Source of the DNA: Zygnema cylindricum
Taxonomy: Eukaryota; Streptophyta; Zygnematophyceae; Zygnematales; Zygnemataceae
NCBI GenBank assembly: GCA_037447655.1
Contig: JBBHKE010001934.1
Coordinates: 227,219-291,218, forward strand
DNA: 64,000 nucleotides
Reading direction: 5' to 3'
A program made the position numbers and the translations under genes. The first letter of the stretch is position 1; each line of letters begins with the position of its first letter. The notes below the pieces were generated by a model. The model was not told the DNA's origin, searched no databases, and was given only the letters and a program-made list of their open reading frames with translations. Positions 20,936 through 58,185 of this stretch are shown in pieces.

Positions 20936-21916
20936 TTACCTCTTGTGGCCCCTGTCCCCATTTTGCCGGGCCATGCCACTGTCTAACTCACTGCTAACGT
21001 CACTTTCTGTCTCATTACGCTTCTGATCCTTTGATTTTCTGCCACTTGTTTTCCTACTACTGATTTTTTGTGACTTCCTATGCTTACGGCTACGCCTATC
21101 ATCTTCACTTTCTTCACTTTCTTCACTATCTTCACTGTCGTCACTGTCTTCACTGTCATCGCTGTCATCGCTTTCACTCTCTTTCTTGCTTTCCCTACGG
21201 CGATGTCGAGATGAACGGGAGGACCGCTTCCTTTTTCTCCTCTCATACGAATCCGATGATTCTGACTCCGATTCTGAGTCGGTTTCAGTATCTGAATCAG
21301 AATCATCATCAGAACCTGAATCTGAATCTTCGCTACCATCAGTTCCACTACTGCTGTCAGATTCACTGTCGCTTTGAGATTTCTGTTTTTTCCTTCTTTT
21401 CTTCGACTTGCTCTCTCCATTCTTTTTGCTCATTTGCCTGCCGAGCTCATCTTCTCTTAGCGCCTCCCTTTCTTGAGCCCTGGGGTCCATTCCATCCAAA
21501 AGTTCTGCAGCATCCATGTACTTTGGCCGGAACTTCGGGTTCTTCAATTGCTGTGTCCTTGTCGGCCTGGCTACATAAACTCTCTCATTCTTGCATTCGT
21601 ACGTCCAATGACCTGTCTTGTAACACTTCTGACACATCTGATTTCCAGGATGGCTTGTCGCGCCTTTCTGCTTACGCACTCCGAGTTTCACTGCTTGCTC
21701 GGTCGACTCCAAATACATCATACGCTTTGCTTCTTTCCGTTCTTGCCATCTGGAAGGTCCTTCTTCCTTCTGTCCGTACGCGTTTACGTTACGAGCAGCA
21801 GCAGCTGCAGCACGCTCGGCTTGAGCCCTACTGAGTCCCTTGCTCGCGTTCATGGCCGCTTGCTTAATGCGATCAGCCGCAGCCATGCTGGACTTCTCTT
21901 TATTGTTGCTGGCCAT
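20936..21916 (-). CDS. ZCCHC10-like CCHC zinc-knuckle, Ser/Asp/Glu/Lys-rich nuclear protein
   Basis: The protein is 326 residues in one exon. Residues 1-90 are basic and Ala-rich ([11 protein letters not shown]). One zinc knuckle, [14 protein letters not shown] (C95, C98, H103, C108), is followed by a charged linker with [11 protein letters not shown]. Residues 165-326 are low complexity: a Lys/Arg patch (SKKRRKKQK, a candidate nuclear localisation signal), then long Ser-Asp-Glu runs alternating with Arg/Lys-Ser runs. The CQKCxxxGHWTYEC core plus acidic-Ser tail is the pattern of the ZCCHC10 (zf-CCHC_3) family; animal members are nuclear and poorly characterised. Partner or RNA specificity cannot be read from the sequence. 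The start is the first ATG after a likely 5' UTR splice acceptor. The stop TAA overlaps a perfect donor context (AAGAG|GTAATT), so the true C-terminus may lie in a further exon to the left. Confidence 0.85.
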
Positions 21917-21930
21917 GACTTCCGCAGAGC

Positions 21931-22128
21931 CTAAAACAGAGCCGAGTAGTCACAAAGAAGTAATCAAGCAACTAGGGAGTCAAACACTAGAGCTCGTCTA
22001 GGTGATCATTAAATCACAAAAGGCTTCCTCTAGGGTTAACTGGAGAGCCTTGAGCAGACCAAGTAGTCACAAAATCGGAAAGTAATTTACAAGCCCGTGC
22101 ATAAATTGCTTTGGGCGCACGCGCTTAC
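21931..22128 (-). other. Probable 5' UTR intron of the zinc-knuckle gene
   Basis: On the minus strand a strong donor (AAGAG|GTAAGC, GT at 22128-22127) and an acceptor (CTGTTTTAG ending at 21931) lie 14 bp before the ATG at 21916. The implied intron is 198 bp. This is inference from consensus sites only. Confidence 0.5.
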
Positions 22129-29559: not shown

Positions 29560-29640
29560 ATGCCACGTGTCATAATTTGAGCCATTCAAATTGCTCTCCT
29601 AATCAGTATATAAATAAGGGAACGTTGTTCGCCCCTCTGC
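29560..29640 (+). promoter_or_regulatory. TATA-box promoter-like segment before the 49-bp array
   Basis: CCACGTG (G-box core, about 29561-29567) lies about 40 bp upstream of a strong TATATAAATA (29607-29616), followed by a short leader running into the minisatellite. No ORF follows, so any transcript would be non-coding. Confidence 0.4.
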
Positions 29641-30147
29641 GAAAGCTTATATAGGCGGTAGGCGGTGTGTCTGTCTTCGATTTTTTCCGTCCGTCCGCAG
29701 TACGGACAGCCGTACCGCTGGCACAATGTAACGGTGCCGTGCGACCGTCTGCAATACAGACCGCTGTACCGCTGGCGTAATTAAACGTTGCCGTGTGTCG
29801 CTGTGCAGATAGCCGTATGGATGGCGTAATTTTACGTTGCCGTGCGTCGCTGTCCAGATCGCCGTACGGATGGCGTAATTTTACGTTGCCGTGCGTCGCT
29901 GTGCAGATCACCGTACGGATGGCGTAATTTTACGTTGCCGTGCGTCGCTGTGCAGATCGCCGTACGGATGGCGTAATTAAACGTTGCCGTGCGTCGCTGT
30001 GCAGATCGCCGTACGGATGGCGTAATTAAACGTTGCCGTGCGTCGCTGTGCAGATCGCCGTACGGATGGCGTAATTTTACGTTGCCGTACGGCTGGCACA
30101 ATTTAACATTGCCAACCGTCGCAGACCGCCGTACCGCTCGCAGAATG
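29641..30147. repeat. 49-bp minisatellite array I, left part
   Basis: The unit includes cgttgccgtgcgtcgctgtg and gccgtacggatggcgtaa. The atggcg start recurs at 29821, 29870, 29919, 29968, 30017 and 30066, exactly 49 bp apart. The proximal units (29690-29820) are more divergent. Because 49 is not a multiple of three, the long minus-strand ORFs are by-products. The array begins with ggcggtaggcggtgtgtctg, as does array II. Confidence 0.95.
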
Positions 30148-30149
30148 TA

Positions 30150-30669
30150 CACCGCGAATCGTTATTAGAGTATATAACTCTAATTTGGGTTTTTGAAATT
30201 TTGATTTTTTTTCATAAATAGGTTACATGATTTTAATTTTTCCTTGACGTTAATTAAGGTACCGTACAGAATAGCGTTAAAAATGAAAGTACGATAAGAT
30301 CTAAATGGTGTGGTGTGCGGTCGATGTCAGACCGTACAAAAATGTACCTTTTAAAGTGAAAAATTTACAAAAAAAGAATTAAATCAGATGCGCAGGCATA
30401 GGAGCGTGCGCTAAAAAAATGGAATTAGTCTGACATGTACGGAAATTTAAATTTCACGACCGCGTACGATTTCTAATATTTTGTACGAATACATATGTTA
30501 ATGTATACAATCGTACGGAGAATATTTAATTTTTGTAGTTCCAAAATTAGCATTGAGCCGAAATTACAATACAACTTTTAAAAAAAAAATCAAATTCTTA
30601 ATTAGCATCAATTACGGTAAATTACCTTAAACACTATTTAAACTTTGACACTAATAACGATTCGCGGTG
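30150..30669. mobile_element. MITE-1c inserted in array I, 520 bp
   Basis: Ends are CACCGCGAATCGTTATTAG and CTAATAACGATTCGCGGTG. Excising it with one TA restores gaatgTAacgttgccg, the normal repeat-unit junction (compare caatgtaacg in other units). This proves the target duplication is TA, consistent with a Tc1/mariner (Stowaway)-type mobiliser. Confidence 0.93.
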
Positions 30670-30671
30670 TA

Positions 30672-30860
30672 ACGTTGCCGTGCGATCGTCCGTAGTACGG
30701 ACCGCCGTACAACGTGACGCTGCCGTGCGTCAGTGGTACAGACCGCCGAACCGCTAACACAACTGACTTTGTCGTGCGTCATGTGACGTTGTCATGCGTC
30801 AGCGGTACAGACCGCCGTACCGCTGGCACAACGTGACGTTTCCGTACGGAAAATCGTACG
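30672..30860. repeat. 49-bp minisatellite array I, right part
   Basis: Diverged units (cgttgccgtgcg, gtacagaccgccgtaccgctggcacaa) continue the array interrupted by the MITE. Unit lengths are irregular here. The following 30861-31035 contains an 18-bp perfect palindrome (attcgatatatatcgaat, 30991-31008) and nothing else recognisable. Confidence 0.75.
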
Positions 30861-31039
30861 GACCCCCTCCCCCCCACCACTGAGCGAGCGCCACGGGGGG
30901 GTAGGGATTTGAGAAAAAAATCGCGTAAATATCCGGATATTCAGCTTCTAGGTGTACGGATTCGATATATTCGATTATCGGATCCCTAAAATTCGATATA
31001 TATCGAATATCGGCAATAGGTCCTTGATACCCAACACTA

Positions 31040-31577
31040 CACCGCCAATCGCTATTAGCATAGTGTATGGTAATTCCGTCCCGCTTTTTTTTTTTTATTC
31101 TCCATTAGCATAGTTCATTATATTTTTTTTCTTTACTCTATTTAGGTTTCATTTTTTAGTACCGTACAAAACGGAAGTACGTCATCATTTAATTAGTGTC
31201 TGTACAAAATTGTACCTTTTTAAGTGAAAAAGTATAATCAATGAGTTTTAGTAACCGCGAACGCATGAGAATGTGCGCTTTAAAAAGAGGATATAATCGG
31301 GTTGTCAAATATCACGCTCTTACATATTCGTCCAGCAACCACGTTTCGACTGTGTGAACGTACGATTTGAGTACAATTTGTCAAACTTTGTACGAATACC
31401 TATATTATTCTAAGCATGTTTGCGATCGACATTTTTTTTCAAAGACTCAAATTATAACTGTTAAACAATTAAAATGCATGCTTTTATCCAAAAAATTTAA
31501 ATTCTTAATTAGAGTAAACCACGGTAATTTATTCATATACGCTAAAGAAACTTCTACGCTAATAGCGATTAGCGGTG
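31040..31577. mobile_element. MITE-1c copy, 538 bp
   Basis: TA-flanked. Ends are CACCGCCAATCGCTATTAG and CGCTAATAGCGATTAGCGGTG. It is closely similar to 45303-45861 (shared cgtgcgacg-free interior with gaacgcatgagaatgtgcgct and ggttgtcaaatatca). Confidence 0.88.
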
Positions 31578-31584
31578 TAGTTGC

Positions 31585-31613
31585 CAGGGTAAATGCCCGT
31601 GTAACGGGCGTTG
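31585..31613 (+). mobile_element. Helitron 3' end, broken at the array
   Basis: The hairpin GCCCGTGTAACGGGC and gttgattta match the termini at 27687 and 32874. The terminal CTAG is replaced by ccgcgg where array II starts (gattta|ccgcggtaggcgg). Confidence 0.6.
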
Positions 31614-32279
31614 ATTTACCGCGGTAGGCGGTGTGTCTGTCTTCGATTTTTTCCGTCCGTCCGCAGTACGGACAACCGTACGTCTGGCACAATGTAACGC
31701 TGCCGTGCGACGGTCCGGAGTACGGACCGCCGTACCACTGGGACAATGTAACGGTGCCGCCCGTACCGCCGTGCGGATGGCGTAATCTTACATTGCCAGT
31801 TGTCGGTGTGTAGACCACCGTACGACTGACATACTCTAACATTGCCAACTGTCGATGTGCATATTGCCGTACGGTTGGTGAAACCTAACATTGCCACCCG
31901 TCGGTGTGCAGACCGCTGTACGGTTGGCGTAACCTAACATTGGTAACTGTCGATGTGCAGACCGGCGTACGGTTGGCGTAACCTAACATTGCCGCCCGTC
32001 GGTGTGCAAACCGCCGTACGGATGGCAAAATCTAACATTGCTAACCGTAGGTGTGCAGACCGCCGTACGGATGGCGTATTTTAAGGTTGCCGTGCGTCGT
32101 TGTGCAGATCGCCATACAGATGGCGTAATGTAACATTGCCGTGCTTCGCTGTGCAGACTGCCTTACGGTTGGCGTAATTTAACGTTGTCGTGCGTCGTTG
32201 TGCAGATCGCCGTACGGATGGGCTAATGTAACATTACCGTGCGTCGCTGTGCACACCGCATTACGGATAGCGTAATGTA
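31614..32279. repeat. 49-bp minisatellite array II
   Basis: About 13 units, more diverged than array I but with the same 49-bp spacing (cggttggcg at 31921 and 31970). It starts with the same ggcggtaggcggtgtgtctg followed by gattttttccgtccgtccg. The array is followed by a MITE-1c copy, as in array I, indicating a shared or duplicated structure. Confidence 0.9.
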
Positions 32280-32794
32280 TCATTAATTTGGGTTCTTGAA
32301 ATTTTGATTTTTTTTGCTAAATAGGATACATGGTTTTAATTTTTCCTTTACTTTAATTAAGGTATTGTACAAAATAGCGTAAAGAACGAAAGTACAATAA
32401 GATCTAAATAGTGTGGTGTACGGTATATGTAAGACCGTACATAAATGTAACTGTTCAAGTGAAAATTTTACAAAAAATGAATTAAAGCAGACGCGCACTT
32501 ATAGGAACGTGCGCTAAAAAAACGGGATTATTCTGACACATAAATTAGTCTGACATATACGGATATTTAATTTCAAGACTGCGTACTATTTCTAATATTT
32601 TGTACGGATACATATATTTATATATATAACCGTACGGCAAATAATCCATTTTTGCTGTTCCCAAATTAGCATAATGCCGAAATTAGAATACATTATTACA
32701 AATTATAAAAAAAATCAAATTCTTATTTAGCATCAATTACGTTACAATTTCTTCGACACTATTTAAAATTTGACATTAATAACAATTCGCGGTG
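32280..32794. mobile_element. MITE-1c copy with deleted left end
   Basis: From aatttgggttcttg onward it parallels 30180-30669 (ttaattaaggta, aagtacaataagatctaaat, gacgcgcac). The right end is ATAACAATTCGCGGTG + TA. The first ~30 bp including the left inverted repeat are missing. Confidence 0.8.
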
Positions 32795-34810: not shown

Positions 34811-35840
34811 TGTTGAAATTTATAGATTTCTAGAGTATTTTCTAGGTTTAGTATAAAAGGAAAAGAAAAGGACAGGCAGCCTGCCTCCACCTCCTCTCTC
34901 TAGCCCCCATACTTGTTGTAGTCACTGAAGGATAGAGAGGGAGGTTGATCTATGGCTGCCTTAGTTCAAACAGGCAGTTATTTTTAGTAGGTTACTAAAA
35001 ATATACCTAACGGACCCGAGATTTGATCCCGGTACCAGCGGTTTGTCAAGTTGGCCGATAGCGGTCAGCTTTATCCTATTAGACTAGGACCAATACTAAA
35101 TGCCATAGTATGTGGTAAATATATATATATATTTAGAGAGGAACAAATCCATTAAACTAAAACTGTATACGGCATGCATAGATACAGTTTTATGAAAGTA
35201 CGAAGTACGATACTATTTCAAAACAGATACCACGCATTTTTCCGACAGCGAAACAAATGTCGCGCAAGTATTTATAACGGCTTAGATTGCATCTCGCTGC
35301 AAATCCAACGGCGCACATCATCGCCAAAATCCCGGAGTGGTCACTTTGGCGTTTTGTGACGTGGCATGACCTAGAGCCACGTGGAGAGATGACGTTCGGT
35401 CATGAGAATTCCGAGGAATGTACGAACGAGTGAAAAGTAGACACGCGTCCGCTAAATAGCCTTGTCGTACTTAGGTCGTACAAAAGGTACATCGGCAGTA
35501 GTACTTTTTGGTACAATACAGTAATCTGATTGGTTCGGACTTCAGTAGATAGAAGTTATTAGAGGGAATCAGGACTTAGAAAATTTTTGGTAGGTAGTCA
35601 CCTCTCCCTTTGAGAGTTTATACAAATAGGCATTTTTACTGCCTCATAACTTATCAGGTGGTTGGCCATTTGCAGTGATTCTTTTTGCTACAGACTCACG
35701 GAAGTCCATGCTGCACAGGGGTGCTGTCAAACTGTCATTTTGCCTTCCTAGATGCAGTGGTTGTGGCTTGAAGTGGGTTAGTTAAATACTATCTAGAGGC
35801 TTTTTGTATTCTGTGGTCCAACGGAGGACACAGAAATGCA
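34811..35840 (+). repeat. 5' LTR of CopC
   Basis: 1030 bp, TGTTGAAATT...AAATGCA. It contains a TATA-rich segment near 35120-35135, TGACGTGGC near 35358 and CCACGTGG near 35378. Antisense A box (TAGTCTAATAG, 35086-35076) and B box (GATCAAATC, 35028-35020). Confidence 0.95.
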
Positions 35841-38800
35841 GGTTTTGGGCCCACCCTCTAGGGTGCCCACCTTTAATGCATCTGGGTTCATCTATTGGGA
35901 AGCCATGATGATGGGAGCTTTGTGCGAAAAACGATACTGGGGTATCGTCAGTGGACAAGTGAAATGTCCACCTTCGGGAACTCCACCAGGATTTGAAGGA
36001 GTAAGGTTTCCTGCAGCTACGGCTACCTCAACGGAGGAGGCAGATGATGGGGACACCAGTGTGTCCGAAAAGGGAAAAGGGAAGGAGACACCCCTCACTC
36101 CTATTGCCACAGTCCCGGGAGCGGCGACCGTGAAGACCGCGGAGAACGATACTCAAATGTGGGAGGATGTAAACATGGCTGCCAAGAACTTCATTCTAAG
36201 GCACCTCACTCAAGCTTTGGCCACTCCTCATCTTCACATTTACAAGGCCGAGGAGTTGTGGGTGAGTTTGGTGGAGATTTATAGAGCTGGAACTATTCAG
36301 GAGCTCCAGTTGGCTGAGCAAAAGCTAGTGAGATATACTTACAAAGGAGGAAAGATGTTGGATTACTATAATGAACTTTCTTGTTTGTATATAGAGATGG
36401 AAAGTGCCTGATGGAAAAGTAAAATGAAAATGAAAGTTAACACCCTTATCATGAAGTTACTAGATGAGTACGAGAACATAGTGTACCGAGTACAGGAAAT
36501 GGCAGATAGTTCATGGAAATAGAACACAGTGGTCAGGATGATACTTGTGCAAGAAAACACAATGGAGATTAGGATAGGAGGAAAGTGCATTCAAGCTCTA
36601 GCAACAAGAGGGGGCCGATGGGGGAAGGACCCGAAGAAACCATACAAAGGGGAAAGGGATCATTCTGGAGGACCGAGGCCCCCAAAGGGTCTTTGAATTC
36701 TTTGCAAAAAGCCGGGACACTTCATCGCAGATTGTGTCAAGCTGTCGGAGCTGAGGCTCCAAGAAAACCGTGGAGGTGGTTCTTTTGGAGGGAAGAAAAA
36801 GGCACTTGTGGTTACAAAAGTGACAAGAGAAACCGAGGATGAGTCTTCTGAGGAGGATGGGGAGCTTCTTCTTGACGAGAATCTGGAGGAGAAGGAGATC
36901 CGTCGTAGACAAAAATGTGCCCTTGGAGCAATTCGGGAGGCTCCACAAGAAGGATGGATCATCGACTCAAGTGCATCCATGCATATGTGTCGTGATAAGG
37001 AACTCTTCACTAAGCTAAGAAAGATCCCTACAGTAGAGATAGAGTATGGGGATGGGTGAGTGGTTACTACAGATCTTGTGGGATTAGTAGATCTGAAAGT
37101 CTTAGTGGAAGGTAAGACTTCTATAGTTACATTTTCAAATCTACTCTACATTCCTCAGCTGAGTAGAAATCTTGTCTCTACGTCTGTGTTAGATGACAAA
37201 GAGTTTGATACCTTCACTAGAAAGGGAGTCTTTACAACTAAGTATGGGGATGAAGTTTACTTCACGGCAGATAAGGGTAGCCAACGAATGTTTAGGCTTA
37301 ACCTGAGTAATGAAAAGAATAATGCTTACTATGTTGGTGTTCCTAAGTTGATGATTTGGCATAAGTGGTTGGGGCATGTACATTTTGATAGATTGAGGGA
37401 AATGAAAAAGCTTGGGGTAGTAGAAGGCATTCAGTTTGGAGATAATGAAATGATGGATGATTGTAGTGGCTGTGCTCAAGGTAAGGCTCACACACTACCC
37501 TTTCCAAAAGCCGCCACATATAGAGGTGAGAAAGTATTAGATTTGGTCCACACAGATATTTGGGGACCAGCAAAAGTACCTTCGGTTGGAGGAAAAAGGT
37601 TTATGATGACAATAACCGATGACTGGTCTAGATACTTTAGAGTATACTTTCTAAAAACAAAGTCTGAAGCATCAACTTACTTCAAAGAATATAAAGCATG
37701 GAGTGAGAAGTTGCATGAAACCCCCATTAAGAGGATAAGGAGTGATAATGGGGGGGAATATACCTCTAACCAGTTTGAGGATTATCTGAGAGATGAGGGA
37801 TTACAGCACCAAAAAACTGTACCATATAACCCCGAACAAAATGGGGTAGCTGAGAGGTTGAATCGAACACTAGGAGATAGTGCATGCAGTATGTTGGCCG
37901 ACAAGAAAATAGGAAAGAGATTTTGGGCAGAGGCGATGAACTGTGCCAACTATATTAAAGAATAGAGTCTTTATCTCAGCTGTAAAGGGAGTGACACCTT
38001 ATGAGAGATGAATTGGAAGGAAACCAGATATTTCACACCTTAAAGTTTTCGGTAGCCAAGTTTACAGTCTTGACACGGATAGGAGAAACTGGAAACTAGA
38101 TGTTAAGGGAAAACCTCGATACTTTGTGGGATATGATGAGGATGTTAAGGAGTATAGAGTCTATGACTTAGCAAAGAAGAATATCATCCTGGTCAAACAC
38201 CTAGTTGTCATGGATGAAGGAAAGTCATTTGATCCCTTCAAATATACAAAGAAGATAAAAATCAGATTCGAGTCCGAAAGTGAGGAAAACTCGGTCGTTC
38301 CCAAAAGGGACATGAGTGAAACCGTGATTGCAGATTCAAGGGAGATCCGAGATACAGAAGACTCACCAGAAACCTCACATACTCCTATGGACCTCGAGGA
38401 GATAGAAGAAGCGGGACCAGAACCGGCTTCCATGGACAGGGGAGCGAATCAGACAGTGAGAAGAAACCCAAGACTTCCATACATTCTAGCTTTGGAGTTT
38501 GAGGGAGGAAGGAGGAGCAGCAAATGGATACAAGAAAAACAGGTCGCTCATAAGGTAACTAAGCTATCTCACCCAGATGAGCCTCAGTCTTACTCGGAGG
38601 CAGTGAATAGTCTAGAGAAAGAAAGATGGATTAGAGCCATAAATGATGAGATGGCTTCTATCATGGAAGCAAATACTTGGGAACTAGCGGATTGTCCTCC
38701 AGACAGAAAACCTATTGGGTGTAAATAGGTATTTAAACTAAAACTGAACCTAGATAATACCATTGAGAGGTATAAGGCTCGATCGGTAGCCAAGGGGTTC

Positions 38801-40182
38801 ACCCAAAAGGAGGGGATTGACTATGATGAGACCTTTGCTCCAGTTGTTAGGTTCCCATCACTAAGGATTCTCCACAGTCTAGCAGCAGCGGAAGACATGG
38901 AAATACACCTGATGGACATTAGACAGCTTTTTTTAATGGTGAGTTAGAGGAAGAAATTTTCATGAGAAAACCCGAGGGGTTCGTGGAAAAAGGAGAAGAG
39001 AGCAAAGTTTGCAGGCTCATTAAGTCCTTATATGGACGGAAGTATGCTCCCTGACAGTGGAATAAGAAACTAGATGAGTTTCTCACCGATCTGGGATATA
39101 TCCCTATCAACTCTGACCATTCTATCTATATGTTTGAAGATGAGAATGGTGTCATTTTTATTGAATTTATGTGGATGATCTGCTTCTGTTTAGTAAGTCT
39201 TTGGAGAAGATCAATAGGCTAAAGAAACATCTTAGGGGCAGATTTGATATGAAAGATTTAAGGGAGGCAAAATATATTTTGGGGATCGAAATGGAGAGAG
39301 ATAGGGGGAAGAAGATTATCAGACTTACTCAGAAAGAAGCAATAGGTAATATACTTGAGAAAATCCAAATGGAAAATGCTAAAAGTTGTACCACTCCCAT
39401 GGACTTGAAAAAAGTAAGTGATCGGTGTGTAAAAGGAGGAGTGATGATCTTAGACGATCAGATGAGTCCAGAGGAGAGAGAGTTCATGAAGTCTATCCCT
39501 TATAGACAAGTTGTAGGAAGTTTAATCTATTTTATGAACTGTACCAGGCCGAACATAGCGGCAGCAGTTGGAGTACTCAGTAGGAGTCTTAATGATCCTA
39601 AGAAGAGAGACTGGGAGGCAGCCAAAAGAGTCATGAGATATCTGGATGGAACCAGAGAATTATGGTTGCATTTGGGAGGGGAGCACAGTGATATCACCAC
39701 TTCGAGTGATGCTAGTTATGGGGATGCACCTATGAGAAGATGCAGATCTGGATATGTTTTGTATGTGGGGGAAGGTGCTTGCTGTTGGAGAAGTAAGCAA
39801 CAAAAGGTGGTTGCTTCAGTCTACTATGGAGGCTGATTATATGGCGTTCGTTCTGCTATAAAATAACTAATGTGGGTGAAGTTATTGTTGCAAGAATTGG
39901 GATATATGAAGGAGGGAGTGCATGAAATCTTTTACAATAATCAAGTTGCAATCGCAATTGCAGCCAATCCAAAATACCATTTCAAAGCAAAACATGTGGA
40001 CATAAGATTAAGCTTCGTAAGAGAAAAAGTTGAAAATAAAATTTTAAATCTTTTGTATAGACCTGATAAAGAAATGGTGGCTGACATGATGACCAAACCT
40101 GTGCCCTCTCCTAAATTACAATATTGTTGGGAAAAATGCAGGTTGAAAGAAAAAATAAAATTAGACTAGAAAATAAGGGGAG
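35841..40182 (+). pseudogene. CopC gag-pol, multiply disrupted
   Basis: The gag frame is open over 35836-36411, then a TGA. The zinc knuckle near 36695 has lost its first Cys to a stop (GL*ILCKKPGHFIADC). The protease motif is DSS instead of DSG (about 36964). The integrase frame 37060-37965 keeps HTDIWGP, RSDNGGEY and EQNGVAER but then frameshifts at an extra A near 37960. A piece 38126-38728 ends at a TAG replacing Trp. RT (38730-39250) is split by indels, with VDDLL around 39170. RNase H is at 39171-39836 and, after a frameshift near 39815, 39870-40169. The integrase triad is intact whereas protease, Gag and RT are not. Confidence 0.92.
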
Positions 40183-41220
40183 TGTTGAAATTTATAGATT
40201 TCTAGAGTATTTTCTAGGTTTAAATATGTTAGTATAAAAGGAAAAGAAAAGGACGGGCAGCTTGCCTCCACCTCCTCTCTCTAGCCCCCATACTTGTTGT
40301 AGTCACTGAAGGATAGAGAGGGAGGTTGAACCATGGCTGCCTTAGTTCAAACAGGCGGTTATTTTTAATATGTTACTAAAAATATACCTAACGGACCCGG
40401 GATTTGATCCCGGTACCAGCGGTTTGTCAAGTTGGCCAATAGCGGTCAGCTTTATCCTATTAGACTAAGACCAATTCTAAATGTCATAGTATGTGGTAAA
40501 TATATATATATTTAGAGAGGAACAAATCCATTTAACTAAAACTGTATACGGCATGCATAGATACAGTTTTATGAAAGTACGAAGTACGATACTATTTCAA
40601 AATAGATACCACGCATTTTTCCGACAGCGAAACAAATGTCGCGCAAGTATTTATAACGGCTAAGATTGCATCTCGCTGCAAATCCAACGACCCACATCAT
40701 CGTCGAAATCCCGGAGTGGTCACTTTGGCGTTTTGTGACGTGGCATGACCTAGAGCCACGTGGAGAGATGACATTCGGTCATGAGAATTCTGAGGAATGT
40801 ACGGACGAGTGAAAAGTAGACATGCGTCCGCTAAATAGCCTTGTCGTACATAGGTCGTACAAAAGGTACATCGGCAGTAGTACTTTTTGGTACGGTACAG
40901 TAATCTGATTGGTCCGGACTTCAGTCGATATAAGTTATTAGAGGGAATCAGGACTTAGAATTTTTTTGGTAGGTAGTCACCTCTCCCTTTGAGAGTTTGT
41001 ACAAATAGGCATTTTTACTGCCTCATAACTTATCGGCTGGTTGGCCGTTTTTAGTGATTATTTTTGCTACAAGCTCAGGGGAGTCTACGCTGCATAGCGG
41101 TGCAGTCAAATTGTCATTTTGCCTTCCTGGACAGCAGTGGTTGTGGCTTGAAGTGGGTTAGTTAAATACTATCTACAAGCTTCCTGTATTCTGTGGTCCA
41201 ATGGAGGACACACAATTGCA
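40183..41220 (+). repeat. 3' LTR of CopC
   Basis: 1038 bp, TGTTGAAATT...AATTGCA, preceded by the polypurine tract and followed by the ATAAT duplication. It differs from the 5' LTR by scattered substitutions and small indels, so the insertion is not recent. Confidence 0.95.
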
Positions 41221-41393
41221 ATAATAGCGATGCACAATGTAGTTTTCAGCTGTCAAACGTTGAGGAATGTGGCTATATCGCTCAGAAACTAACAATTCTT
41301 GTATCGCCGACGGGTGTAAAATATATAACATACTATATATCATGGTACTCTACCCTATATTGTATTATATTTTATACATTATATAGTGTCTCG

Positions 41394-41614
41394 TGTTAAG
41401 ATTCTTAGAATCGGGGGATAGAATGGACGATCCCAAGAAAGGGATTGATGAGCCGGCCACGATTTGAACCTGGGATCTTTCACTTAAGCTGCGAACGCAC
41501 TACCACTGTGCCACCAGTTCTGATGTTACACTGGTGGGTCCAATTTTATATAGGATTTAGTGTGGATTTTACCACAATTCCGGATATCGAGCGCACATTT
41601 CACGTATCTCAACA
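41394..41614 (-). repeat. 3' LTR of the TRIM
   Basis: Same layout as the 5' LTR, with the tRNA-like segment at 41520-41450. It is followed by the TCTCG duplication on the plus-strand left side. Confidence 0.93.
41450..41520 (-). other. tRNA-like cloverleaf in TRIM 3' LTR
   Basis: Acceptor GAACTGG/CCGGCTC has one A-C mismatch. The D arm is identical to the other copy. The anticodon stem TTCGC/GTGAA has loop AGCTTAA. The variable loop is AGATC. The T stem CCAGG/CGTGG has one G-G mismatch. A and B boxes are intact. Confidence 0.82.
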
Positions 41615-41679
41615 CCCCGTTCGAGAGGTAGCCGGTCATATTTGTCCATGTAAATCTAGTCCTCTTGGCTTTGATACCA

Positions 41680-41900
41680 TGTTAAGATTCCTAAAATCGG
41701 GGGATAGAATGGATGATCCCAATAAAGGGATTGATGAGCCGGCCAAGATTTGAACCTGAGACCTTTCACTTAAGTTGCAAAGGCACTACCACTGTGCCAC
41801 CAGCTCAGATGTTACGCTGGTGGGTCCAATTTTATATAGATTTTAGTGTGGAGTTTACCACAATTTTGGATATCGTGCGCACGTTTCACGTACGTCAACA
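41680..41900 (-). repeat. 5' LTR of the TRIM
   Basis: In element sense: TGTTGACGTACGTG, then a TATA box (TCTATATAAA, 41840-41831), then the 71-nt tRNA-like segment (41806-41736), a small ATCCC/GGGAT stem-loop, and the end CTTAACA. Confidence 0.93.
41736..41806 (-). other. tRNA-like cloverleaf in TRIM 5' LTR
   Basis: Reading the minus strand: acceptor GAGCTGG pairs with CCGGCTC (7 bp, one G-U). The D stem GCAC/GTGC has loop AGTGGTA. The anticodon stem TTTGC/GTGAA (two wobbles) has loop AACTTAA. The variable loop is AGGTC. The T stem TCAGG/CTTGG (two wobbles) has loop TTCAAAT. The discriminator position is A; no CCA is encoded. The A box TGGCACAGTGG and B box GGTTCAAATC fit the Pol III consensus. 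The central loop triplet would be CTT (Lys-like), but U33 is missing, so it is unlikely to be a translating tRNA. Confidence 0.85.
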
Positions 41901-41905
41901 TCTCG

Positions 41906-42337
41906 TGCCATGTATGACAATGCATTCCGTATCTTTGTACAAAACAGTATAGATGTACAATTTGAACCACAATTATCGTTTTAAATTTTTGGGCTTGGTA
42001 TCTATCGGTAATATATCGCGATTATTGATTTTTTACCGCGATAATTTCCTTACCGATATACCGTACCGATATATCCGTTATCGGTGGATCAGAAAAAATT
42101 GCATATCGGTTATCGAAAAACGGCTACCGATACACAAAACTACAAATTACAGTTAGATTTATAAATTATCGGTAACTTTAATACCGATGCGTTGTATACC
42201 TTTCGTTTGTTTGCCACGAAAACAACATCCAACGGTCCATCACAAAGATACACGCTTTTGGTTGCCCGATAAATGTTTAACTCAAATAACGATTGAAAAA
42301 AGAAAACGATGGGGGGTGTACTGTAGCAATTGAATAC
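41906..42337. other. Segment with ATCGGT/ACCGAT inverted motifs
   Basis: Positions 41990-42185 contain repeated tatcggta, ttaccgata and accgatata strings in both orientations, able to form several overlapping hairpins. No gene. Confidence 0.45.
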
Positions 42338-54420: not shown

Positions 54421-54469
54421 CCTTCCACGTGGAGTTCCCAAAAACCCCATAAAGTCCTCCCTTCCTCAT

Positions 54470-54574
54470 CAGCGACTGCCACATCATCAGCACCGACTGC
54501 CACGTCATCAGCACCGACTGCCACGTCATCATCACCGACTGCCACGTCATCATCACCGACTGCCACGTCATCAT
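54470..54574 (+). promoter_or_regulatory. Five 21-bp repeats with ACGT-core elements, expansin promoter
   Basis: The unit CACCGACTGCCACGTCATCA(G/T) starts at 54470 (variant, CACAT), 54491, 54512, 54533 and 54554. Four units carry GCCACGTCA, i.e. TGACGTGGC on the other strand, the C/G-box hybrid bound by plant bZIP factors. A palindromic CCACGTGG lies upstream at 54425 and GCCACGTGTC overlaps the ATG. A TTTAAAA string ends at the ATG. Confidence 0.7.
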
Positions 54575-54602
54575 CATCACCATCATCCCACCCTTTAAAA
54601 AA

Positions 54603-55466
54603 ATGCCACGTGTCACGTCCCATCCCCGTTCTCCCTCCTCTACCTCGCCTCGCGCCCCTTCCCTCCTCTCCCCCAAGGACCCTTCTCCCCTCCTCTCCCT
54701 CCTCCTCCTCCTCTTCTCCCTCTCCCTCCTCTCCTCCCTCCCCTCCCCCTGCCTCGCGAAAAGAAAGCTCTCCAAATGGATCCGCGGCACCGCCACTTAT
54801 TACGGCGACGAATCCGGCGGCGGAACCGGAGGCGGCACGTGCGGGTACGGAAATAATTACCAATTCGGGTACGGAATGATGACGGCAGCAACTTCTTACG
54901 CGTTATGGTTCGACGCCGCGATTTGCGGAGCCTGTTTTGAAGTACAATGCGCCAATCCCACCGGGTGCAAACGGGGTAAATCCGTTGTCGTATCCATAAC
55001 GAATTTATGTCCGGGAGACGGAGGTTCGCCGTGCGCCCGACCGAATAAACATTTAGATTTGGCGCTCCCGGTTTTTACGGCGATCGCGGATAAGGTTTTG
55101 GGACACATGTCGGTTCGGATGCGGCGGGTTCCGTGCGTAAAATCCGGAAATGCCAAAGTGACTTTGTCGGGGAATCCGTGGTTTTTGATGGTCATGTTTA
55201 CTAATTTGGCGGGTAGCGGGGACGTGAAGGCCGTACAAATTCGGGCGTCGGGTACGAAAGCTTGGAGCTGGTTTCGGCGGAACAACGGCGCGACTTGGTC
55301 GATGGATAATTCGGACCCGGGGAAGTTTTTCGGGCGGCAAGTGGATTTTCGAATTAGGGCGGCGTATACGGGCGAAATATTGGTTCTAAAAAGGGCTTTA
55401 CCGCAAAATTGGGGTTTTGGAGGGACGTATGAAACCGGAGGCAATTTCGGTATGAATTGGAATTGA
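54603..55466 (+). CDS. Alpha-expansin-like wall-loosening protein, intronless
   Basis: The protein is 287 residues. A hydrophobic leader (about 30-50) with a probable cleavage after CLA (52) follows an unusually long Pro/Ser-rich N-terminus; there is no later Met before residue 92, so the first ATG is used. Residues about 60-178 form the double-psi beta-barrel domain: TATYYGD, GTCGYGNNY, CGACFEVQC, TNLCPGDGG, HLDLALPVF, RRVPC, with eight Cys. Residues about 185-283 form the C-terminal CBM63-like domain, with TNLAGSGDVKAV and aromatic residues (W221, W223, W232, W270). Expansins loosen cellulose-matrix contacts in the wall without hydrolysis. The GG-C-x-P-x-H-D arrangement and RVPC favour EXPA over EXPB. 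The usual HFD is HLD (150-152), keeping the Asp. Typical EXPA genes have introns, this one none. GC content is high compared with its AT-rich flanks. Confidence 0.93.
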   Translation: MPRVTSHPRSPSSTSPRAPSLLSPKDPSPLLSLLLLLFSLSLLSSLPSPCLAKRKLSKWIRGTATYYGDESGGGTGGGTCGYGNNYQFGYGMMTAATSYALWFDAAICGACFEVQCANPTGCKRGKSVVVSITNLCPGDGGSPCARPNKHLDLALPVFTAIADKVLGHMSVRMRRVPCVKSGNAKVTLSGNPWFLMVMFTNLAGSGDVKAVQIRASGTKAWSWFRRNNGATWSMDNSDPGKFFGRQVDFRIRAAYTGEILVLKRALPQNWGFGGTYETGGNFGMNWN

Positions 55467-57109: not shown

Positions 57110-58185
57110 CATCTGAAGTCTCAAGAAGGTCCCTTTTTCCAATGTTGTTTTTGTTTCCAAAATGGATTCTACTTTAATGTTTTCAAAGATTTCTCTTCTT
57201 TATAACAAGCTAAATGTTTTGGAAAATAATTTTGTAACGTTGTTAAAAAAAAAGACTTATCTTTATGAAAACGTTTTCATTAGAGGTACAGATTATTTTG
57301 TTTAGTTGCAAAGAAGCTTGGATTAGATAATCGGGTACACCAATTCACAAATATTCGCTCATAATTATAATAATGATAGTCCTATTTTACACCAATTTAC
57401 GAATATTAACCCATTGTAATAATAATAGTCTTATTTTACACCAATTTACAAGCATTCGCTCGTCGTAGAAATAATAGTCCCTTTTTCCACAATCGACAAG
57501 AAAGAGAAAAGATTCCCTCGACTTTTGGGCGACAAGGATTGTTATTTTGCTACCTGAATTGGTTTGTTTCTTTATTCTAGGCAATTTGATATATGTGCAA
57601 TACTCGACATTAGTGTTAACACTAATAGCGATTTGCGGTGTAGCTTCCATTATTCGACGTTATTAACATTTCCAGCGTTTAAAAGGTGAAGACATACATG
57701 TTAATGTGTATTTCACTATTTTCCAAGCATTCCATATAGATGATCTTACTTCAAGTCACTTAATGTTGTTTTGAGCGTAGTGTTGAAGGTCTTTAACGGT
57801 TTTTTCGAACACTTTCTCAACTTTTACGGATTTTTTAGGGTCATTTAGGATTTTTAAGAGTGTTTTTCAGGCTACTACAGTACTATAGCTATTGAGGATC
57901 GGCGATATTATACGTATCGCATGGGCGTTAACGCTTTATTGCGCAATCTTTTGGCGTTTCTAGTTTTTTTTTGCGAACAACTTTATGGGCTGCCACTAAT
58001 TCAACCGTACGTGATTTCAAGTTTTGTAGTTTGAAACATAGATGTCCTATGCGCATAAAACGCACGGAGTAAACTAACGAATACTACGTAGAGTGCGCAT
58101 AAAACAATTTCAAACTTTTAAAATTCGTAGGTAAAATTCGTACTTTTTTTGGACTTACAAATTTCAAAAATTTTCAATATTCAAT
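57110..58185. other. AT-rich segment with short tandem repeats and a MITE-1 end
   Basis: A ~49-52 bp unit (ttacaccaatttac...attcgctc...aataatagtc) is repeated three times at 57337-57481. A MITE-1 right end (aacactaatagcgatttgcggtg + TA) closes at 57640 without a matching left end. No gene. Confidence 0.55.

Follow-up and report, generated by a model that had tools for sequence, protein, structure and literature searches.

The window analysed here, a stretch of 64,000 nucleotides of Zygnema cylindricum DNA, carries on the plus strand at 54453-55466 an expansin-like reading frame, whose best match is 83% identical and whose other matches do not exceed 46%, and on the minus strand at 20936-21949 a CCHC zinc-finger (ZCCHC10-like) frame, whose best match is 96% identical and for which a Mesen1-labelled protein (Mesen1 presumably standing for Mesotaenium) and a Marchantia protein reach 70% each. 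By these proteins the host is likely to be a streptophyte outside the flowering plants. Two clusters of 49-bp tandem repeats lie at 29610-32355, where a 300-nt stretch recurs in 15 overlapping copies. A Copia-type element with broken reading frames spans 34811-41220 on the plus strand; its LTRs of about 1 kb are 93% alike, it is flanked by the target site duplication (TSD) ATAAT, and relatives of it occupy about 8.5-14 kb and, in inverted orientation, the two ends of the window.

The subject of this report is a 507-bp element on the minus strand, which together with its TSD spans 41389-41905 (Table 1). Comparison of the sequences bore out the original prediction of a TRIM with two LTRs of 221 bp each, an interior of 65 bp and a TCTCG duplication: two LTRs, a primer binding site (PBS) and a polypurine tract (PPT) are present, the length is below 1000 bp and there is no coding region, as every frame between stops within the TSD-bounded span is shorter than 120 aa in the reading-frame listing of the window. 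We take the PBS to be of the initiator-Met tRNA type. The LTR pair differs at 22 positions (10.0%), seven of which lie inside the tRNA-like part, and the copy is an old, decayed member of a family that we call A.

Table 1. Parts of the TRIM in the window; positions are those of the window.
Feature	Position	Strand	Basis
TSD TCTCG, left	41389-41393	no strand	sequence
TSD TCTCG, right	41901-41905	no strand	sequence
5' LTR, 221 bp, TGTTGA...TTAACA	41680-41900	minus	LTR comparison
3' LTR, 221 bp	41394-41614	minus	LTR comparison
Interior, 65 bp, from PBS to 3' LTR	41615-41679	minus	sequence
PBS TGGTATCAAAGCC, start of interior	41667-41679	minus	sequence and relatives
PPT, decayed, GAACGGGG, 5' of 3' LTR	41615-41622	minus	sequence and relatives
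tRNA-like domain, 5' LTR	41735-41806	minus	ARAGORN; RF00005, 41.9 bits
tRNA-like domain, 3' LTR, two non-standard pairs	41449-41520	minus	ARAGORN; RF00005, 40.4 bits
Box A-like TGGCACAGTGG	41789-41799 (5' LTR), 41503-41513 (3' LTR)	minus	sequence
Box B-like GGTTCAAATC	41747-41756 (5' LTR), 41461-41470 (3' LTR)	minus	sequence
TATA-like TATATAAAA, starting 32 bp upstream of tRNA-like domain	41830-41838 (5' LTR), 41544-41552 (3' LTR)	minus	
CCACCAGC, inverted repeat of tRNA-like positions 3-10 (41797-41804)	41816-41823	minus	could rival acceptor stem

The tRNA-like unit that had been claimed for each LTR was recovered by two programs. ARAGORN called a tRNA-Lys on the minus strand in both LTRs, and Rfam RF00005, run with permissive filters, matched over its whole model the domain of the 5' LTR at E 2.4e-07 and that of the 3' LTR at E 6.2e-07, with scores above the gathering score of 29 bits. 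It should be emphasized that sensitivity matters here: the whole window scanned with fast filters yielded no match at all, and the RF00005 matches in the window thus depend on the permissive filters. The matched segment is 72 nt long, not 71 nt as first given. Boxes A and B are present in both LTRs, as had been proposed; the cloverleaf stems proposed for each LTR consist of standard pairs throughout in the 5' copy, but not in the 3' copy. A TATA box had been placed about 25 bp upstream of the domain, and a TATA-like sequence is indeed there, although its start is further away than supposed. With up to three mismatches allowed, the 19-mer that surrounds box A is matched twice in the window and not once in 100 shuffles; this, the RF00005 scores and the better-preserved relatives in the same genome rule out a chance resemblance to a tRNA. 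At E 1, an Rfam scan of 41200-42100 gave two RF00005 matches and none to a 5S family.

Relatives of the element were sought in the same genome (352,776,454 bases in 2,689 contigs), where at least 49 matches were found, a lower bound in that 40 of the 820 first-look candidates were scored. In the 30 family A loci that were fetched the LTRs are paired or stand in arrays, including tandem LTR-interior-LTR arrays such as L007, which has four LTRs. Most other copies have 5-bp duplications: 17 of the 21 complete copies with at least two LTRs possess a perfect 5-bp TSD, each in its own sequence context, compared with a mean of 0.2 and a maximum of 3 in 1000 rounds of shuffled flanks. This count covers 21 of the 28 clusters in 27 loci, the overlapping loci L010, L012 and L026 being set aside and six clusters with cut ends and one single LTR left out. 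The relatives also carry the cloverleaf, so that the refuting condition named at the outset, family copies without that region, decided for the prediction: among 61 LTR matches, six of which are cut, there are 55 full-length LTRs, and of the 51 distinct sequences that these represent ARAGORN found a tRNA in 45 and missed six. Rfam was run on 19 of the 30 loci fetched by then; of their 42 LTR matches, 31 contained RF00005, at 40.1-58.4 bits, and the other 11 gave no Rfam match at E 0.1. The PPT is clear in the relatives, many of which have CTCTCGAGGGGGGG, and their PBS varies as TGGTATC(A/G)(A/G)AGC. In L031-L060, loci that in part overlap one another and L001-L030, 50 of the 57 matches to the tRNA domain are flanked by both U3 and U5.

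The youngest copies are the best preserved. The LTRs of each pair are identical in L002 and L003 and 0-0.5% apart across L002, L003 and L004, and in these three loci both LTRs score 56.3 bits with RF00005, compared with about 40 bits for the window copy at 10% divergence. Thus, the cloverleaf is a property of recently active members that decays in old ones. Sequence comparison establishes the LTR-PBS-PPT-LTR anatomy, the 5-bp TSDs, the near-identical young members and the tRNA-like LTR domain, and the identical LTR pairs point to recent activity of family A in this genome. The paired LTRs, the PBS and the 5-bp TSD exclude the identification of the element as a SINE, with a tRNA head and no LTRs. 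Plasmid and phage collections contained no match to the element, and the viral_contigs collection did not contain the exact 19-mer; plant nuclear DNA is not expected in any of these.

A search with the tRNA-like domain alone led to L042 and L052, which hold a different LTR, B, whose tRNA-like sequence differs from that of A (49.3 and 54.3 bits). The genome contains at least 55 matches to this LTR (40 of 297 candidates scored), and ten regions were fetched from the places listed, picked mainly for lying in pairs. Family B is a separate TRIM with an LTR of about 247 bp and an interior of 61 bp; a perfect 5-bp TSD flanks four of six complete multi-LTR copies (L065, L068, L069 and L070, not L064 and L066) and both of two solo LTRs, and RF00005 was found in all 19 B LTRs scanned (38.2-54.3 bits). 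The last 10 nt upstream of the tRNA-like unit include CAA in 17 of 23 B LTRs, TTTT follows the unit at a distance of 11 nt in 22 of 23 (the remaining one, L075, was not located), and in none of the 23 is there a TATA within 40 bp upstream. The accessible text of PMC11700998 names upstream CAA and downstream TTTT among the features of plant tRNA genes, and the B LTR looks like such a gene in its layout. A third, degenerate LTR (L052, 903-1092), termed C-type, contains an old tRNA-like domain followed by TTTT; it has nothing in common with A except this domain and roughly 20 nt upstream.

The original prediction knew of no described family of this kind. Kojima 2024 (PMC10886601), however, describes TRIMs with tRNA-like LTR sequence and names them Helenus, Selaginella moellendorffii being the only plant in the tabulation available to us. 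According to the accessible text of that paper most Helenus elements have a box A with TRGCY and YGG and a box B with GGTTC, those of plants and fungi have 5-bp TSDs, and Helenus-1_SMo has an LTR of 120 bp and an interior of 85 bp. The window element, compared with Helenus-1_SMo by description, fits the Helenus definition: its LTRs contain tRNA-derived sequence, and 5-bp TSDs are found in both A and B. Families A and B further resemble Helenus, as far as it is described there, in a length below 1000 bp without a coding region, in A and B boxes within the tRNA-like LTR sequence, in having a PBS and a PPT, in tandem arrays and in the presence of several families per genome. The boxes of family A include GGTTC and TGG, with TGGCA one base off TRGCY, and those of family B include TAGCT, TGG and GGTTC. 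In contrast, the LTRs are 221 bp (A) and 247 bp (B) rather than 120 bp, the interiors 65 bp (A) and 61 bp (B) rather than 85 bp, the host is, by its proteins, not the listed Selaginella moellendorffii, and exchange between families with a joint within the tRNA-like domain, as seen here, is not mentioned in the accessible text of PMC10886601. Pol III transcription, the TRIMp3 trait, would have its candidate signals in the A and B boxes present here, whose conservation is uninformative. Searches of the open PMC literature, subscription papers being outside that scope, listed no other paper with the tRNA-like LTRs of TRIMs as its title subject. We are dealing with a real element of an already known class, forming a new family in what is probably a new host lineage, and Helenus-type elements, tabulated from one plant in the text available of Kojima 2024 (PMC10886601), would be extended to what looks like another streptophyte lineage.

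The comparison with Cassandra that had been made at the outset, as a TRIM with a small-RNA-like unit in each LTR, is apt. In the accessible text of PMC7215508 the motif TGGTATCAGAGC serves as a Cassandra landmark, and a PBS of that type, a small-RNA gene in each LTR and tandem arrays of LTR and interior are common to both kinds of TRIM. The unit is, however, tRNA-like here and 5S-like in Cassandra (PMC7215508), the window element having no 5S rRNA-derived LTR sequence, and families A and B are known here from their sequences alone.

The two families have exchanged parts. By their coordinates, six of at least 41 matches to the A interior lie behind a B or a chimeric B/A LTR (40 of 117 candidates scored). 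As read from the sequence, three of these hybrids have the layout B-intA-A (C535, C2522 and C1766), one is B-intA-A-intB-B (C2124), and two are chimera-intA-A-intB-B (C1450 and C327); in all of them the interior is of the type of the LTR on its 3' side (6 of 6 A interiors, 3 of 3 B interiors). AATTG on both sides of C1766 is a perfect TSD, and this copy therefore either integrated as a hybrid or underwent a precise replacement of its outer LTR. The flanks of C2124 are GTGCT and ATGCT, alike at 4 of 5 bases, and there are 6 differences in 240 positions between its outer B LTRs; C327 is flanked left and right by GGGAG, although this lies inside a GGGA repeat, and no TSD was found at the hybrid ends of C1450. 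Since C1450 and C327 agree in 288 bases of their left flank and in the whole chimeric LTR, we treat them as a single event, although their right parts differ. The chimeric LTR has B sequence as far as the tRNA-like domain and A sequence beyond, the switch falling within 8 common bases, AAGGTCCC, and the hybrid tRNA that results scores 45.1 bits with RF00005. What families A and B have in common is limited to about 19 bases around the PBS and, where the chimera is joined, to 8 bases, and so little common sequence makes a simple misassembly less likely.

These hybrids could be accounted for by the packaging of A and B RNAs together. Transfer of the second strand in trans at the common PBS would place a B LTR ahead of an A interior and A LTR, and transfer of the first strand in trans within R would create an LTR with the U3 of B and the U5 of A, in which case R would span the tRNA-like domain. 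Template switching was proposed for complex Triticeae elements by Sabot and Schulman 2007 (PMC1950507), and, in the accessible text of that paper, those elements likewise consist of two fused elements with common or chimeric LTRs and outer TSDs, the B-intA-A-intB-B arrangement of C2124 resembling their heterodimer. In contrast with the large elements described there (PMC1950507), the partners here are TRIMs, one joint lies inside a tRNA-like domain and C1766 has two unlike outer LTRs. Recombination after insertion, instead of strand transfer, is a possible origin of the A/B hybrids.

The explanation that we favour, at a probability of roughly 0.55, is that the element is a Helenus-class TRIM in which Pol III would start at or near the tRNA-like domain, the RNA would be reverse transcribed in trans, the domain would lie in R, and A and B would have recombined by heterologous strand transfer. 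The A LTR holds both the TATA-like box and boxes A and B, and either would start an RNA near the tRNA-like 5' end. We infer a start at or just upstream of the domain, by Pol III most likely, acting through boxes A and B and aided by the TATA-like box. Pol III is favoured because two families with different LTRs each keep the layout of a tRNA gene. A consequence of the TTTT inside the B LTR is that Pol III transcripts begun in this LTR would often terminate short of the interior, so that read-through would be needed at the 5' LTR. The RNA would be reverse transcribed from the initiator-Met-type PBS by the proteins of an autonomous element, the tRNA-like domain being inside R, over which the first strand transfer takes place; recombination at the PBS would then correspond to the second transfer and recombination within the domain to the first. 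No autonomous partner of the TRIM was found, and the Copia-type element in the window is unsupported in this capacity, its PBS being unlike that of the TRIM.

The tests of conservation had weak outcomes. Among the 51 distinct A LTRs, U3 has a mean pairwise identity of 0.895, the tRNA-like part one of 0.922 and the remainder downstream one of 0.949. The values for box A, 0.929, and for box B, 0.918, are ordinary for the LTR, 36% and 51%, respectively, of equally long LTR windows being at least as conserved, and their preferential conservation in family A was rejected; the same applies to the tRNA-like stretch of B, as 65% of windows are at least as conserved. TTTT is absent from 15 of 23 full A copies, but shuffles lack it as often (26-74%), and selection against TTTT was accordingly discarded as evidence for Pol III. 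In an alignment of 48 A tRNA domains, taken from 53 distinct domain sequences by omitting the C-type one of L052 and four whose length is aberrant, 96.2% of cells pair, and three pairs have changed on both sides, a number reached by 133 of 500 shuffles. The main double change, C:G to U:A in the D stem of 10 of the 48 rows, is probably one event; covariation within the family rests on this one pair and was rejected as proof of selection on the fold. Stronger covariation figures came from an alignment that included two B rows and one C row, which are other tRNA types.

It could be argued that Pol II transcribes the same TRIM, with the TATA-like box as its promoter, and that the tRNA-like domain is a fixed passenger, derived from an old SINE or tRNA insertion, with no present role. 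The TATA-like box, with an identity of 0.978, is indeed in the best conserved 4% of equally long A LTR windows while boxes A and B are average, a TATA at -32 would also make Pol II initiate close to the 5' end of the tRNA-like domain, and B has TTTT between the tRNA-like domain and the interior. In family B, however, U3 is unrelated and the tRNA-like sequence is not that of A, and a TATA is absent while CAA is frequent, as described above, such that the tRNA gene layout must have been kept or acquired twice, and the near-identical young copies of A keep a full 56-bit tRNA. We consider Pol II transcription with a passenger domain a serious but doubtful alternative. An accidental insertion of a SINE or tRNA gene into a single copy, as opposed to a feature of the family, has a negligible probability: both LTRs of many independent copies with TSDs of their own carry the domain, which refutes this explanation for family A.

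The domain may instead act as an RNA structure, in packaging, in strand transfer or in protection from RNase P/Z, with the upstream CCACCAG arm exchanging the acceptor stem for a hairpin wherever U3 is present, such that the 5' and 3' copies would fold differently. The arm faces CTGGTGG in the 5' part of the tRNA-like domain, all 8 pairs are preserved, each in 48-51 of the 51 A LTRs, and the distant C-type LTR, too, has the upstream block GGACCCACCAG. Of the LTRs folded in silico with the upstream arm, all six give a hairpin probability of 0.43-0.90 (-30 to +72) or 0.75-0.97 (to the LTR end) and an acceptor stem of at most 0.05, and without the arm the acceptor stem is kept in four of four young LTRs (0.55-1.00). 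On these predictions the 3' copy of the RNA could fold differently from the 5' copy. The families are young, however, which makes retention weak evidence, and the C-type copy has a mismatch in the hairpin of the upstream arm; as the main role of the domain we regard RNA structure as quite unlikely. Somewhat speculative, and in our opinion improbable, is a broader proposal that makes the tRNA-like domain a hinge which can be interchanged: in one genome, several TRIM families would carry different tRNAs in R, be packaged together, and swap U3 and U5 by strand transfer inside the domain and whole LTRs via the common PBS, with the competing upstream hairpin giving a tRNA fold at the 5' end of the RNA and a hairpin near its 3' end. 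Returning to the favoured reading of Pol III initiation, the presence in one genome of two families with different tRNA-like sequences, some copies having identical LTRs, makes a Pol III origin directly testable, and the hybrids, together with the chimeric LTR, offer a sequence-based handle on the position of R.

Many LTR copies will turn up among the tRNA genes predicted for this genome. The window itself contains, at 57892-57927 on the minus strand, a 36-nt remnant that is 89% identical to the end of a B-type LTR and beside which there is no Rfam tRNA. Elsewhere in the genome, partial A LTRs in L032, L038 and L060 start within the tRNA-like domain beside other sequence, the neighbour in L060 being a CT repeat.
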